This document shows, in pieces, positions 3,529-10,246 of a stretch of DNA of 45,149 nucleotides. A program made the position numbers and the translations under genes. The stretch lies in assembly GCA_028707695.1 (NCBI GenBank), contig JAQWAL010000011.1, positions 1-45,149 on the forward strand, read 5' to 3'. This DNA is from Bacteroidales bacterium (GTDB taxonomy: Bacteria; Bacteroidota; Bacteroidia; Bacteroidales; UBA932). Each line of letters begins with the position of its first letter. Position 1 is the first letter of the stretch. The notes beneath the pieces were generated by a model. The model did no database searches, was not told the DNA's origin, and was given only the letters and a program-made list of their open reading frames with translations.

Positions 3529-4566
3529 CTATGGTCTTAAATTTCTCACAACCTCTCCTGTTTTCCATAATTCACTAGATCGTAAATCATTAAGTTCCTC
3601 TTCAAGTTTAATGCGATAATCACTTCTACCATTGGAATCTATGGATTTTTGTGCTTCGTTTCCGTTTGCTACTTCGGAATATAGTTCGTTAAAAACAGGG
3701 AGTAATGCTTCTTTAAACTTAATCCACCAATCAAGGGCTCCTCTTTGTGCAGTTGTAGAACAATTCGCATACATCCAATCCATTCCATTTTCTGCAACCA
3801 AAGGCATGAGGCTTTGGGTCAACTCCTCTACTGTCTCGTTGAAGGCCTCCGAGGGAGAGTGACCGTTCTCTCTTAGAACTTGGTATTGTGCAGCAAAAAG
3901 CCCTTGCAAAGCCCCCATCAAAGATCCACGTTCTCCAGTTAGGTCAGAGTACACTTCTTTCTTGAAAGTGGTTTCAAATAGATAACCAGAACCTATGCCA
4001 ACACCAAGTGAAACAACTCTTTCATATGCTTTACCTGTAGCATCACTATATATCGCATAACTTGAGTTCAATCCTTTGTCTTGGAGAAACAACCTTCTTA
4101 AGGAAGTTCCGGAACCTTTTGGTGCTACAAGGATAACATCAATATCATCGGGAGGGACAATACCCGTCTTGTGTTTGTATGTAATGCCAAAACCATGTGA
4201 AAAGCAAAGTGCTTTTCCTTTGTGCAAGTGTCTTTTAATTGTTGGCCATACTTCAATCTGCCCGGCATCTGACAAAAGATAAAGTATTATTGAAGCTTGT
4301 TTGCAGGCTTCTTCTATACCAAACAGGTTTTCATTTGGTAACCATCCATCCTGCACTGCCCTATCCCAGCTATTAGAGTTGGCTCTTTGCCCAATGATAA
4401 CATTAAAACCGTTATCTTTAAGGTTTAATGCCTGACCTGGACCTTGTATTCCATAACCAATGACAGCTATGGTCTCTTCTTTCAAATAGTCCAGTGCATT
4501 ACTTAGGGGAAATTCTTCCCGGGTAACAACATTCTCCAATGTTCCTCCAAAATTGATTTTTGCCAT
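3529..4566 (-). CDS. ilvC: Ketol-acid reductoisomerase
   Basis: It catalyses the Mg- and NAD(P)H-dependent isomeroreduction of acetolactate or acetohydroxybutyrate. The N-terminal Rossmann fold carries AVIGYGIQGPGQ (about 34-45), CFSHGFGI contains the conserved histidine, and the C-terminal helical domain has the metal ligands in SDLTGERG. At 345 residues it is a short, class I-like enzyme in the form seen in Bacteroidetes, with a C-terminal extension after the knotted core. It sits 24 bases after ilvN, and its ATG follows ATAATT, the recurring start context in this operon. Confidence 0.95.
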   Translation of the reverse strand: MAKINFGGTLENVVTREEFPLSNALDYLKEETIAVIGYGIQGPGQALNLKDNGFNVIIGQRANSNSWDRAVQDGWLPNENLFGIEEACKQASIILYLLSDAGQIEVWPTIKRHLHKGKALCFSHGFGITYKHKTGIVPPDDIDVILVAPKGSGTSLRRLFLQDKGLNSSYAIYSDATGKAYERVVSLGVGIGSGYLFETTFKKEVYSDLTGERGSLMGALQGLFAAQYQVLRENGHSPSEAFNETVEELTQSLMPLVAENGMDWMYANCSTTAQRGALDWWIKFKEALLPVFNELYSEVANGNEAQKSIDSNGRSDYRIKLEEELNDLRSSELWKTGEVVRNLRP

Positions 4567-4590: not shown

Positions 4591-5109
4591 TTATGATACT
4601 TTTCTTAAGAGTGATTCTACTGGCTCCCTTTGCAATACTACATTTCCAGACCTGGCATAGGATATAAGGAGGTTTTTCCGTTCAAGACTCTGCTTGAGTG
4701 CATCCAGTTCTGCTTTGCTGCCAGATTTTTCCGCTATAATATATTCATTGGAAATTTCTATTATTTTTCCATTCAGCCGATTAAGGAAATGATTAAAAAA
4801 AAGTGAATCTTTAATGAAATCGGGTGATATTTTATACAATGCCATCTCTTTGTAAATTAGCTCATCTTGTAAAAAGTAATTTACATTTAGAATGTCAATA
4901 TTGTTATTCAGTTGATTAACAATTCTTTCTACGGTCTCTTCTGAAATTATGGCAGATATGACTACTGTGCTAATCCCTTTTATGTAGGATTCTGATACAT
5001 TAAGACTTTCAATGTTAATGTGACGTTTTAGATAAGCAGATGTAATTCTGTTTAAAACAGATATTTGATTGTTTACAAACGCCAATACTATGAATTCTTT
5101 ATTTTCCAT
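4591..5109 (-). CDS. ilvN: Acetolactate synthase small (regulatory) subunit
   Basis: The 172-residue protein has an N-terminal ACT domain (about residues 5-80; start of fold EFIVLAFVNNQISVLNRITSA) and a second alpha/beta domain. This is the layout of IlvN/IlvH subunits that bind valine and confer feedback inhibition on IlvB. It is encoded 9 bases after ilvB, as is usual for the two subunits. The sequence is rather divergent, and whether the valine site is functional cannot be read by eye; identity rests on length, the ACT pattern and position. Confidence 0.88.
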   Translation of the reverse strand: MENKEFIVLAFVNNQISVLNRITSAYLKRHINIESLNVSESYIKGISTVVISAIISEETVERIVNQLNNNIDILNVNYFLQDELIYKEMALYKISPDFIKDSLFFNHFLNRLNGKIIEISNEYIIAEKSGSKAELDALKQSLERKNLLISYARSGNVVLQREPVESLLRKVS

Positions 5110-5118
5110 AATTATAGT

Positions 5119-6819
5119 TTATTGTGTTATTAATTCATCCAAAGATTTTCCGGCAGGAACCATAGGGAATATGTTCTCTTCTTTTGTTACATCAATCTCA
5201 AGTAAAATCGGACCCTTATGGCTTATCATTTCTTTTATTTTGCTTTCCAAATCATTAAAATTCATTATTTTATACGATAGAATCCCATATGCTTGAGCTA
5301 TTTTTGAAAAATCGGGATTATCCATTTCGGTAAATGAGTATCTTTTTTCAAAGAACAACTCTTGCCATTGCCTGACCATACCAAGAAATGAGTTGTTAAG
5401 AACGACAATTTTTACAGGCAGGTTGTATTTCATGATTGTACCTAATTCGTGTATAGACATTTGAAAGCCCCCATCTCCAGTAAAGATTATAACATCTTTC
5501 TCTTTTTTGCCACATATTGCACCAATTGCTGCAGGTAAGCCAAATCCCATGGTGCCCAAACCACCTGAAGTAATGAAATTCCTTGGATTGCTGAATTTTG
5601 AGAATCTTGCTGCAAACATTTGATTCTGACCTACATCAGTTACAATTATGCTATCATTGCAACACCATTCTGCTACAGACTCAACCACTTTTGCCATACT
5701 TATGGATCCGCTTTTTTTTTCTTTCAAGTACATACTTTCTATCATATTACGGTCCTCTATTTTGACCTGGTTCATGTATCTTATCCATTCTTCCCTTTTC
5801 CTGTATTTGATTCCAGGCATAATTAATTTGATAGTTTGCAATGCATCCCCATGTAGTTTAAGGTCGCATTTGACACATTTGTCAAACTCTGCCTTATCAA
5901 TATCTATATGGATTATCTTGGCATTAGGAGCAAATCCAGGGATTTCACCTGTAAACCTGTCGCTAAACCTCATACCAATAGCTATCAAAAGATCAGATTT
6001 TTGGATCATATGGTTAGCAGTGAGAGAACCATGCATTCCTGCAAATCCTCCGTGTAGGATGTAATTGGTGGGGACAGAAGAAATGCCCAAAAGTGTTGTT
6101 ATAATGGGTATGTTCCCTTTTTGTGACAATTCCATACATTTGTCTGATGCACCAGAAATCAATACACCTTGGCCAGATATTATCAAAGGCATTAATGAGT
6201 TGTTTATCATATTCACTGCCTCTGAAATAGATACGCTAGGAATCTCTGGGAGCATTTTGCCTTTTATTTGTTGAGGCTTGTAGGGTGTGTATGAAAATCT
6301 TGTGAGTTCGGTTTGCGCATTTTTTGTAAAGCTTATCAAAACAGGGCCAGGCCTTCCGCTTCTTGCTATGTAAAATGCTTTGGACATGATTGTTGTAATT
6401 TCTGAGGCAGATGTTATTTGATAACTCCACTTTGTGAGAGGTATTGTAATACTTATTGTATCTGCTTCCTGAAAGAAATTGCTTCCCAATTTGTCGTATC
6501 CAACTTGAGCTGTAATGCATACCAGTGGTGTTGAATCCATCATTGCGTCAGCGATTCCTGTAACCAAGTTGGTTGCTCCGGGACCAGCTGTAGCAAAACA
6601 AACTCCGGGTTTCCCGGTAGCGCGGGAATATCCTTGAGCTGCGTGGACTGCTCCTTGTTCGTGCCTTACCAGTATGTGTCTGATTTGTTGCTGGTAATCG
6701 AATAGCTTGTCGTAGAGTGGCATTATCGTTCCTCCTGGATAACCGAATATTGTGTCAACACCTTCTTTTTGTAGTGATATCAACATTGCCTCTGCCCCTG
6801 TGATCTTACTGTTTTCCAT
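5119..6819 (-). CDS. ilvB: Acetolactate synthase large (catalytic) subunit
   Basis: This thiamine-diphosphate enzyme condenses pyruvate with pyruvate or 2-oxobutanoate. The cofactor-activating glutamate is E54 in VRHEQGAVHAAQGY, and the ThDP/Mg motif begins GDGGFQMSIHELG and ends in VVLNNSFLG. FAD-type middle and PYR/PP domains follow the family order, and the length (566 codons) is normal. I start at the ATG at 6819, which has the same TTAATTATG context as ilvN and ilvC. A TTG at 6840 overlapping the ilvD stop as TTGA would add seven residues and remains an alternative. Confidence 0.95.
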   Translation of the reverse strand: MENSKITGAEAMLISLQKEGVDTIFGYPGGTIMPLYDKLFDYQQQIRHILVRHEQGAVHAAQGYSRATGKPGVCFATAGPGATNLVTGIADAMMDSTPLVCITAQVGYDKLGSNFFQEADTISITIPLTKWSYQITSASEITTIMSKAFYIARSGRPGPVLISFTKNAQTELTRFSYTPYKPQQIKGKMLPEIPSVSISEAVNMINNSLMPLIISGQGVLISGASDKCMELSQKGNIPIITTLLGISSVPTNYILHGGFAGMHGSLTANHMIQKSDLLIAIGMRFSDRFTGEIPGFAPNAKIIHIDIDKAEFDKCVKCDLKLHGDALQTIKLIMPGIKYRKREEWIRYMNQVKIEDRNMIESMYLKEKKSGSISMAKVVESVAEWCCNDSIIVTDVGQNQMFAARFSKFSNPRNFITSGGLGTMGFGLPAAIGAICGKKEKDVIIFTGDGGFQMSIHELGTIMKYNLPVKIVVLNNSFLGMVRQWQELFFEKRYSFTEMDNPDFSKIAQAYGILSYKIMNFNDLESKIKEMISHKGPILLEIDVTKEENIFPMVPAGKSLDELITQ

Positions 6820-6836
6820 AATTAAGTCTTTATTAA

Positions 6837-8666
6837 TCAAATTTTCCTGACTGCTCCTTTATCTGCAGAAAGTACATGAGCCGAATATATTTGAAGGGAA
6901 ATTGGAATGTCCCTGTTTCTTCTTTTTGGTGAGTAGATTGGTTCCCCTTTTATCTCGGCTAAAAGTTCTCTTTTCCTATCTTCCCATGTATCTGTTCCAA
7001 CAGATGCATTTAATGTTCTTTCAGGAATATTTATTGATATCTCATCTCCATTTTTAAGTAAAGCAAGTTCACCACCTGCAGCTGCTTCGGGTGATACATG
7101 GCCTATTGATAATCCGGAACTTCCTCCGGAGAACCTGCCATCAGTAACCAAAGCACATTTTTTGTCCAGTGCCATTGATTTCAAGTATGAAGTTGGATAT
7201 AGCATCTCTTGCATTCCAGGCCCTCCTTTAGGCCCTTCGTACCGTATCACGATAACAGAGCCAGCATGTACGGTCCCGTCCAGGATTCTTTCGCAAGCCT
7301 CTTCCTGGGAGTCAAATATTACTGCTTTGCCTGTGAATTCAAGCATTTCTAAAGGTACTCCTGCAGTTTTGACTATAGCACCATCTTTTGCGATATTACC
7401 TTTTAGCACTACCAAACCACCATCGGTGCTGTAGGGGTGGCAAATGTCCCTAATGCACCCGTTTTCACCATCAAGGTCCAGATTGTCATAAAAATTGTTT
7501 TGTGAAGCTAAAACCCTGCTTTTACAGCCTCCTGGAGCTGCTCTGTAAAAACGGCTGGTTGATTTTTTGATCCTTTTTTCTTTAATTGAATTTTTTTTGA
7601 GACACTCTTCCAGCGATATCAAATTTACACGTGGTACAGAACAGTCAAGAAATCCGGCTTCTTTTAGTTCTGCTAAAATTCTCATAACACCTCCGGCCCT
7701 GTGAAAGTCTTGCATATGATGTCTCCCGTTTGGAGATAGTTTGCATAATACCGGTATTTTCCTGGATAGGATATCAACATCTTCCATATCCAAAACTACC
7801 TGGGCCTCGTGAGCTATTGCCAGCAAATGAAGGACTGTGTTTGTAGAGCCTCCCATTGCAATATCCATGGACATAGCATTGATTAGGGATTCTCTGGTAA
7901 CTATTGACTTTGGCAGAACGGTGGTGTTCCCGTTGTAATAATACTCTTGGGTAATATCACAAATTGTCTTTGCAGTCATTTTTATGAGTTTCTTCCTTAG
8001 AGAGTGAGTTGCCAACAAAGATCCATTTCCAGGTAACGACAGGCCTATTGCCTCTGCCAGGCAATTTATTGAGTTGGCTGTGAACATTCCGGAACAGCTG
8101 CCACAAGTAGGGCATGCCTCTTTCTCAAGCTGCATTAGTTCATCTGCTTGTGAATTGGAATCTCCTCCTTTCACCATCACATCTACCAAGTCGTAATCTA
8201 CCCCTGCTATCCTGCCTGCCTCCATTGGACCTCCTGAAACAATTATGGAAGGTATGTTCAACCTTACCATTGCCATGAGCATTCCAGGAGTTATCTTGTC
8301 GCAATTGGAGATACAAATCATAGCATCTACTTTATGTGCATTGCACATATATTCAACGCTGTCTGCAATCAACTCCCTGGAAGGAAGAGAATAAAGCATT
8401 CCACTATGTCCCATTGCAATACCATCGTCAATAGCAATTGTATTGAATTCTGCGGCAAACATGCCTCTCTTTTCAATCTCCTTTTTGATATATTGTCCCA
8501 CGTTGTGTAGATGGACATGACCCGGAACAAACTGGGTGAATGAATTTACAATGGCAATCAATGGTTTGTCCATTTGTTGGTCTGTCATTCCGTTTGCTCT
8601 CCAAAGTGCTCTGGCCCCTGCCATCCTTTGGCCTTTTCTGGTTTGGTTGCTTCTTAATTGTATCAT
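6837..8666 (-). CDS. ilvD: Dihydroxy-acid dehydratase
   Basis: It dehydrates 2,3-dihydroxy-3-methyl acids to the 2-oxo acids of Val and Ile synthesis, using an Fe-S cluster and Mg. The family signatures are present: [12 protein letters not shown] with C122, and [15 protein letters not shown] with C185, C188 and C191. The active-site serine region [10 protein letters not shown] appears near the C-terminus (here as [11 protein letters not shown]). At 609 residues the length is normal. It is the first structural gene of the operon and lies directly behind the attenuator-like leader, about 20 bases after the T-tract. Confidence 0.96.
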
Positions 8667-8685: not shown

Positions 8686-8757
8686 AAAAACAAAGCACCC
8701 TGCTTTTTCCGAATCCGGTTAAAGCAGGGGGCTTTTTATATTGCGTTAACAGGATTC
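8686..8757 (-). terminator. ilv attenuator: intrinsic terminator with competing antiterminator
   Basis: Read on the minus strand, arms at 8735-8721 and 8706-8692 form a 15-base-pair stem with one C/T mismatch, a small inner CCG/CGG stem, and a T-tract at 8690-8686, which is an intrinsic terminator just before ilvD. A second pairing is possible: 8757-8746 (GAATCCTGTTAA) with 8722-8711 (TTAACCGGATTC), 11 of 12 pairs. That hairpin would hold the terminator's 5-prime arm in its loop, so the two are mutually exclusive. The antiterminator's first base is the last base of the leader-peptide stop codon. The plus-strand reading has no gene to terminate. Confidence 0.75.
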
Positions 8758-8933
8758 TAAATAGGAATGGTAATAATGACAAAAATGACTAGCAGAATAA
8801 TCACGTTAAAGAGATTATTCAGCAGGGATATGAAATTAATTGAGATAACACCAAATAGCAAATCTAATCCAATGTTATTTAGTGGATTAAGGAAAGACGT
8901 GCTTTTTGTTTTAGATGCCTGAAGGGCTTTCAT
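8757..8933 (-). CDS. ilv leader peptide rich in Ile, Val and Leu
   Basis: A 58-codon frame runs from ATG at 8933 to TAG at 8757 upstream of ilvD. Of its 58 residues 26 are Ile, Val or Leu, and the last 18 include 13 of them; the C-terminus is NVIILLVIFVIITIPI, all its Ile codons being ATT. It ends 22 bases before the terminator arm. This is the arrangement of an attenuation leader such as that of the enterobacterial ilv operon. It could alternatively be a small membrane protein, but the position between promoter and terminator argues for a sensor of charged Ile/Val/Leu tRNA. Confidence 0.72.
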   Translation of the reverse strand: MKALQASKTKSTSFLNPLNNIGLDLLFGVISINFISLLNNLFNVIILLVIFVIITIPI

Positions 8934-8970
8934 GTTATGTTCTGTAATGAGTTTCTAAACAATTACACTG

Positions 8971-9154: not shown

Positions 9155-10246
9155 ATGTTTAACGAATATAATCCATTGGAAAAAAAGATGTTCCAAGTTA
9201 TTGACAATAACGGTAAAGTCCTCGATAAAAAGTGGATGCCCAAAATTGACAATGAAAAGCTTGTGACTATTTACAAGGATATGCTGTTTGCCAGAACAGC
9301 AGACTTACAAATAGTCTCATACCAAAGGCAGGGAAGGATTTTCACTTACCCTCCCAACTATGGGCAAGAAGCTATTGCTGCAGCTGCCGGAGTTCATATT
9401 AAAGACAATGATTGGCTGGTTCCGGCATTCAGAGAGATGGGAACAATGCTTGCAAAAGGGGTATCATTAAAGGAGTTGTTCTTATATTTCATGGGATACG
9501 AAGATGGCTCTGCATTTAAAAAAGCTAAGAACACACTCCCAATAAGCGTTCCAATTGCCTCCCAACTTTTGCATGCGGCTGGTATTGGGTATGCGATAAA
9601 ATACAACAAAGAAGATAAGGTTGTTTTTGGCTTTGTTGGCGATGGAGGAACCTCAGAGGGTGATTTTCACGAAGCTGTAAACTTTGCCGGTGTATGGAAA
9701 GTACCTGTTATTTTCATAATTCAAAATAACCAATATGGGATTTCTACACCTACAAAAATGCAAACAGCGTCTGAGTCTTTAGCTATAAAGGCAGTAGCTT
9801 ACGGAGTAAAAGGAATCCAGGTAGATGGCAATGACTTTTTTGCAATGTACAAAGCAATTGAGGAGTCTGTGGATGCTTGTCGCAAAGGTGAAGGACCAAT
9901 CCTTATAGAGGCCGTGACATACCGTAAAGGAGCACATACCACTTCTGATGACCCTACAAAATACAGGACAAAGGAAGAGGAGCAGGAATGGGAAGCAAAA
10001 GACCCTATGAAAAGGCTCAAATCTTACCTTATATCAAAAAAACTTTGGAGTGAAAAAGAAGAAGATAGTATACTGCCTCAATTTAAAGAAGAGATTGACA
10101 GGCAGTTTATAGAGGCAGAGAATTATGGTCCATATCCGGCAGAAGATATCTTCAAATATATGTATTCCGAAATGCCAGATGATTTGAAAGATCAAATCTC
10201 TGAACATGAAAGGTTTCTACAGTGGAAAAGTACCAAGGTTAAATAA
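9155..10246 (+). CDS. pdhA: Pyruvate dehydrogenase E1 component, alpha subunit
   Basis: This is the ThDP-binding half of a heterotetrameric 2-oxoacid dehydrogenase E1 that decarboxylates the oxoacid and passes the acyl group to E2. The ThDP/Mg motif runs from G162 (GDGGTSEGDFHEAVNFAG) to N192 (IIQNNQYGIST), and the 363-residue length is normal. It leads a five-gene plus-strand cluster with E1 beta, E2, E3 and a lipoate ligase. Pyruvate is the most likely substrate. A branched-chain 2-oxoacid dehydrogenase has the same alpha/beta architecture and cannot be excluded by eye, especially next to the ilv operon. Confidence 0.9.
   Translation: MFNEYNPLEKKMFQVIDNNGKVLDKKWMPKIDNEKLVTIYKDMLFARTADLQIVSYQRQGRIFTYPPNYGQEAIAAAAGVHIKDNDWLVPAFREMGTMLAKGVSLKELFLYFMGYEDGSAFKKAKNTLPISVPIASQLLHAAGIGYAIKYNKEDKVVFGFVGDGGTSEGDFHEAVNFAGVWKVPVIFIIQNNQYGISTPTKMQTASESLAIKAVAYGVKGIQVDGNDFFAMYKAIEESVDACRKGEGPILIEAVTYRKGAHTTSDDPTKYRTKEEEQEWEAKDPMKRLKSYLISKKLWSEKEEDSILPQFKEEIDRQFIEAENYGPYPAEDIFKYMYSEMPDDLKDQISEHERFLQWKSTKVK

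Follow-up and report, generated by a model that had tools for sequence, protein, structure and literature searches.

The region upstream of ilvD in this Bacteroidales genome raised the question of whether expression of the four genes that follow is governed by translation of a short leader and, if so, how many RNA helices are involved. Leader-peptide attenuation is well known from textbooks, with most examples described in Proteobacteria, Actinobacteria and Firmicutes; the enterobacterial attenuators comprise a leader peptide, antiterminator and terminator hairpins, and a protector helix. The whole stretch of DNA analysed, hereafter the window, was 45,149 nucleotides in length, and the elements concerned lay on its minus strand in the order leader, antiterminator 5' strand (A), terminator, ilvD, ilvB, ilvN and ilvC. 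A short leader ORF rich in the codons of the pathway, a predicted terminator hairpin between that leader and the first structural gene, and an alternative antiterminator exclusive with the terminator were all recognised from the sequence, and the element upstream of ilvDBNC is very probably a ribosome-mediated transcription attenuator, classical in mechanism and simple in layout. The features of the region were as follows.

8999-8971, minus strand: putative promoter, TTG (8999-8997), 18-nt spacer and TACATTTG (8978-8971), from sequence
8933-8757, minus strand: leader ORF of 58 codons, MKALQASKTKSTSFLNPLNNIGLDLLFGVISINFISLLNNLFNVIILLVIFVIITIPI, with ATG at 8933 and stop codon TAG at 8759-8757, from sequence
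8804-8772, minus strand: likely control codons V I I L L V I F V I I, from the footprint calculation
8757-8746, minus strand: antiterminator 5' strand (A), GAATCCTGTTAA, from folding, the A:B shuffle test, covariation and placement
8735-8721, minus strand: terminator 5' arm, AAAGCCCCCTGCTTT, from folding and covariation
8722-8711, minus strand: antiterminator 3' strand (B), TTAACCGGATTC, plus TGC at 8726-8724, from folding and covariation
8706-8692, minus strand: terminator 3' arm, AAAGCAGGGTGCTTT, from folding and covariation
8690-8686, minus strand: terminator T-tract, TTTTT, from sequence
6837-8666, minus strand: ilvD, dihydroxy-acid dehydratase, the first gene behind the switch (NF009103, 2.5e-285, above cut-off)
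5119-6840, minus strand: ilvB, acetolactate synthase large subunit (TIGR00118, 4.8e-201, above cut-off)
4591-5109, minus strand: ilvN, acetolactate synthase small subunit (TIGR00119, 9.6e-24, above cut-off)
3529-4566, minus strand: ilvC, ketol-acid reductoisomerase (TIGR00465, 1.4e-92, above cut-off)
9155-10246, plus strand: pyruvate dehydrogenase E1 alpha gene, the divergent neighbour on the other side

The neighbouring pyruvate dehydrogenase gene is divergent, and the hairpin therefore does not mark where a gene lying upstream ends. The ilvD gene and the listed ilvB ORF share four bases (6837-6840) if ilvB starts at the TTG at 6840; the real start of ilvB may be an ATG a few codons inside this ORF (MENSKITG).

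The first-pass annotation had described a terminator in competition with a second hairpin, whose loop takes in the 5' arm of the terminator and whose first strand begins in the leader stop codon, and this geometry was confirmed. The terminator coordinates, including the T-tract, were correct, with 14 of 15 positions paired between the two arms; the terminator segment folded at -24.9 kcal/mol (z = -4.9), a stability reached by none of 200 dinucleotide shuffles. The second hairpin paired 11 of 12 positions between strands A and B (8757-8746 with 8722-8711), the single exception being a T/C mismatch, and the antiterminator segment, at -12.8 kcal/mol (z = -5.4), was likewise matched by 0 of 200 dinucleotide shuffles. 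Position 8757 is the final base of the stop codon, such that strand A begins within it. Strand B spans the top of the terminator 5' arm together with the terminator loop, leaving the lower part of that arm (8735-8727) inside the antiterminator loop. In the fold, the antiterminator was lengthened by GCA at 8744-8742 pairing with TGC at 8726-8724, and the overlap between the antiterminator and the terminator 5' arm is consequently greater than the two bases originally described. A pattern scan for terminators between 8300 and 9300 called none, probably because it accepts no loop longer than 8; the hairpin was recovered by folding instead. An Rfam scan of the window at gathering scores, covering T-box and other curated covariance models, returned 0 matches.

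Covariation in relatives, which had been put forward as a check on the two hairpins, was observed for both in an alignment of 12 sequences, as judged against 500 shuffles that ignore relatedness. In the antiterminator, both sides had changed in five pairs (a number attained by 1 of 500 shuffles), 87.4% of cells were paired, and the covariation score was 0.203 compared with 0.116 after shuffling (0/500). Sliding the partner by one column reduced the score to 0.093 or 0.080, with four or two both-side pairs remaining. The terminator also had five pairs changed on both sides (0/500); its cells were 77.8% paired, and it scored 0.247, compared with 0.160 after shuffling (0/500), and still 0.225 when slid by +1 column. 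The number of extra pair types did not exceed the shuffles for either helix, being reached by 97 of 500 for the antiterminator and 358 of 500 for the terminator. Among the changes between strands A and B, GC became AU at columns 3:55 and 4:54, and CG became UA at 8:50. Both helices are supported by these compensatory changes. One sequence, L088, was shifted by one base in strand B within the alignment.

The leader was rich in Ile, Leu and Val codons, with a C-terminal end of ...FNVIILLVIFVIITIPI, and its conservation was examined among ilvD loci from several sources. A genome collection contributed the best 80 of 596 candidates; 28 of 60 relatives had a match; and 114 of 299 genomes in the family had one, from which 30 loci were taken, 18 being new. 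A further 67 upstream regions of the window's family were then added. Partial genes and genes near a contig end were left out, as were G084 and G218, the latter two for no special reason. The ilvD start served as anchor for all but two of the 194 loci (L107 and L108), and the upstream sequence was 150 nt or longer in 190. Of these 190 upstream regions, 121 contained a leader with six or more Ile, Leu or Val among eight consecutive codons; the corresponding values were 17 of 190 for the reverse complement and 9.6% for 1900 shuffles. With at least seven in eight, the values were 91 of 190, 4 of 190 and 0.6% respectively. Val, Ile and Leu made up 59% of the last 20 codons among 118 leaders, which had been chosen for that richness. 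The remaining 69 of 190 loci were without a leader of the six-in-eight type, and some of them, L128 for example, belong to the window's own family. A few leaders, at loci with no significant antiterminator helix, probably arose by chance, among them those of the Desulfobulbales loci L029 and L040. Near-duplicates were present; L140 was identical to L026, and L182 to L078, over 701 nt. The motif TAnnTTTG, the Bacteroidetes promoter consensus, occurred in the 110 nt preceding the leader start at 90 of 114 loci, compared with 12.2 expected from shuffles.

Since the C-terminal part of the window's leader is hydrophobic and resembles a membrane helix, the ORF might instead encode a functional small membrane peptide, followed by a plain terminator that merely lowers expression. 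This is very improbable. The leaders of relatives varied in both length and sequence, yet kept their runs of Ile, Val and Leu near the hairpin; leaders upstream of hisG bear runs of His instead; and strand A is anchored at the stop codon.

A terminator was called in 118 of the 121 loci with an Ile/Leu/Val-rich leader, and 112 of these terminator sequences were distinct. For each, the segment evaluated for pairing began 12 nt before the first base of the stop codon and ended no more than 27 nt after it; its partner was the terminator 5' arm plus loop, and 200 dinucleotide-shuffled copies of strand A served as the control. Pairing between A and B exceeded the shuffles at p < 0.05 in 79 of 118 loci, where about 6 were expected, and 38 loci were at the floor of the test, which is also where the window fell (p = 0.005). 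The helix was not significant in 39 of 118 loci; at some of these, for example L083 and L103, the caller had taken another hairpin, and at others the helix may be absent. When the best partner was sought from 120 nt upstream of the stop codon onward, the best A site was centred 0-19 nt from the stop codon in 80 of 118 loci, against about 16 under uniform placement, and lay within -5 to +20 of it in 79 of the 112 loci with distinct terminators. The leaders of L191 and L183 use different stop codons, and the A-like TTCACGAGTTGTTAG located after the L183 stop codon falls inside the L191 ORF.

Two styles of layout were discerned by eye and left uncounted. In the first, seen in many Bacteroidales, strand A resembles the terminator 3' arm (TGAGAAAGG ... 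CCTTTCTCA ... TGAGAAAGG type), and hence a single strand B serves both helices. The second style, in which strand A (GAATCC/GGATCC type) matches the terminator loop and upper stem, is that of the window's genus and of some of its family. The core GGATCC is self-complementary in many relatives, allowing strand B additional pairing inside the terminator loop. The layout predicted for many Bacteroidales is simple and tied to the leader stop codon; the window's family has a form of it that is directed in part at the terminator loop. In L119 and L120, both antiterminator strands look to have been replaced jointly (TTTCAT/ATGAA instead of GAATCC/GGATTC); the A:B test was not significant for either (p = 0.139 and 0.114).

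Leaders were also identified upstream of hisG and leuA. In the window's genome, the sequence before hisG comprised a leader, MNLYSNIHSVHHHHLRLNGRRDLLCVYSG, and a terminator of -22.8 kcal/mol (L195; G000:C65, upstream of 80067), and that before leuA a leader, MRRQHFLLSLNLLGLMAPDRVVCV, and a terminator-like hairpin (L196; G000:C29, upstream of 35056). Matches to hisG and leuA were present in 41 and 55 of 60 genomes respectively, many of the leuA matches being below cut-off, and 30 loci of each were sampled, with the leuA locus L254 skipped. At least three His in six codons occurred in 27 of the 30 hisG loci examined (0.6 expected from shuffles), and at least four Leu in eight codons in 24 of the 29 leuA loci examined (7.3 expected). 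Pairing of strands A and B was significant (p < 0.05) in 19 of 27 hisG loci. PF00425 (anthranilate/chorismate-binding), which was sought in connection with a Trp leader, had no match in the window's genome, which is 88% complete. Together with those of ilvD, the predicted leaders indicate that many Bacteroidales use attenuation for at least three amino-acid pathways.

The position of strand A beneath a terminating ribosome, and the fact that, of the 79 loci with significant pairing, 39 had the stop codon wholly within the A helix, would also agree with a mechanism in which occupancy of the stop codon, or release from it, is what matters, rather than stalling at specific codons, the helices being secondary. 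Such a mechanism is most unlikely, because the codons track the pathway, being Ile, Val and Leu before ilvD, His before hisG and Leu before leuA. Furthermore, the distance from the His run to the start of strand A was 8-12 nt at 15 of the 19 significant hisG loci, and in the window genome's own hisG leader strand A starts inside the ORF. Codon-specific stalling, as in classical attenuation, remains the preferred reading.

The consequences of stalling were explored with a footprint model, in which the ribosome covered 12 nt from the first base of the A-site codon and each of the last 16 codons was tried. For a transcript ending before the terminator 3' arm, the modelled probability of the antiterminator was 0.99 with the ribosome at codons between 8804 and 8771, then fell to 0.86 at 8768, 0.62 at 8765, 0.37 at 8762 and 0.00 at the stop codon. 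The closing TIPI codons are therefore largely a spacer. The model thereby agrees with the original proposal that a ribosome at the stop codon would cover strand A and that one stalled on Ile/Val codons would leave it free. Once the whole hairpin was transcribed, the terminator had a probability of 0.91 at each of the 16 ribosome positions, being about 12 kcal/mol more stable than the antiterminator. Since the terminator is always favoured at equilibrium, the switch must be kinetic, and the antiterminator must outlast the crossing of the T-tract; we infer that it does persist for this time.

According to the proposed mechanism, RNA polymerase would begin near 8965, trailed by a ribosome translating the leader, and leader translation would control read-through via charged tRNA. 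With charged Ile, Val and Leu tRNAs plentiful, the ribosome would reach the stop codon and cover strand A, the terminator (8735-8692) would fold and the transcript would end near 8688. With charged tRNAs scarce, the ribosome would stall in the VIILLVIFVII run, leaving strand A free to pair with strand B (8726-8711) once the latter had left the polymerase. The terminator 5' arm would then be partly paired and partly held within the antiterminator loop, and the polymerase would cross the T-tract to transcribe ilvD and the genes behind it. The transcription start site, termination, stalling, coupling, the response to amino acids and the transcription of the four genes as a single operon are what we infer from this arrangement.

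The first-pass annotation had further held that only two alternative helices are needed, a simpler layout than the four-segment enterobacterial attenuator. The four-segment alternative is that, when there is no translation, strand A is sequestered by a protector or pause helix (1:2) in the leader, making termination the default, as in E. coli trp, where an untranslated leader leads to termination. In the fold of the window's leader, CAGG..TCTAAA near the leader start did pair with TTTAGA..CCTG at the stop codon and strand A, and among relatives there was a mild excess of pairing between leader and strand A at p < 0.1 (20 of 79 loci, about 8 expected). Against this, p < 0.05 was reached in only 8 of 79 loci (about 4 expected), the value was 0.15 in the window and 0.95 in its closest relative, L082, and the whole upstream fold was unremarkable (z = -1.36, with 13 of 200 shuffles as stable). 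A third helix is at most weakly indicated by these sequence comparisons, and the four-segment arrangement is rather unlikely here. The shuffle test lends a protector no support in the window or its closest relative, but the window's own fold contains the pairing, and such a third helix may be present at some other loci.

Possibly, the layout has been pared down to two helices, with the sensor strand lying under the terminating ribosome. If there is no protector helix, polymerase would continue past the terminator on an untranslated leader, whereas E. coli terminates by default. A more far-reaching version, in which two-helix attenuators for Ile/Val, Leu and His occur throughout the Bacteroidales without a protector and with read-through as the default, and in which the window's genus employs a loop-docked topological block, is possible, if on the doubtful side. 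Were it true, the outcome for an untranslated leader would be the opposite of that in E. coli, and, docked on the terminator loop, the antiterminator of the window's genus and of some relatives would act largely by trapping the 5' arm inside its own loop, a block that is topological rather than a matter of base pairs.

In its pathway-rich leader peptide, alternative hairpins, T-tract and place before the first structural gene, the ilvD element resembles the trp, his, leu and ilv attenuators of enterobacteria. It differs from them in having no clear protector helix, in the antiterminator 5' strand beginning at the leader stop codon and in the lack of an Rfam match; moreover, the antiterminator of the window's genus takes the loop and top of the terminator and not the whole 5' arm. 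The element offers a direct test of transcription-translation coupling in the phylum, as well as a readout of amino-acid starvation in bacteria that are frequent inhabitants of animal guts.

Among other described systems, Staphylococcus aureus has a Leu-rich attenuator upstream of ilvD, for which reporter activity on Leu depletion and the effects of mutations provide support (PMC5794164). It shares with the present element the same first gene, a leader rich in branched-chain codons and a terminator before ilvD, but belongs to another phylum, and its predicted antiterminator pairs with the U-tail and leaves the terminator stem-loop intact (PMC5794164). The ilvB-II motif of Corynebacterium and the C. 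glutamicum ilvBNC leader likewise have branched-chain leader codons and overlapping antiterminator and terminator; they differ in having three hairpins, including an anti-antiterminator, and in preceding ilvB, not ilvD (PMC10272879, PMC11857589). The simplicity of the layout has a precedent in actinobacterial trp attenuators, for which complementary triples have been described (PMC1262725). In those attenuators, as in many Bacteroidales loci, three mutually complementary segments serve both helices, but amino acid, phylum and segment sequences differ (PMC1262725).

Within the same phylum as the window, passages on Flavobacterium psychrophilum give strong clues for leader-peptide attenuation before amino-acid operons (PMC9723704), and passages on Bacteroides thetaiotaomicron describe sORFs in 5' UTRs (PMC7366714); the passages available from both contain no ilvD leader, antiterminator layout or comparison (PMC9723704, PMC7366714). 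A paper on Bacteroidota his genes contained one match to 'attenuat' and none to 'leader'. Open-access titles and the opening lines of abstracts included no Bacteroidales ilvD attenuator, and Lopatovskaya 2010 and Vitreschak 2004 may hold Bacteroidetes predictions. The mechanism is classical, but its reach and reduced layout in the Bacteroidales, and in the phylum, appear to be little described. Within the window's genus, ilvD was matched in only 13 of 25 genomes, and in 8 of the 12 most complete, and the branched-chain pathway seems to be patchily distributed there.
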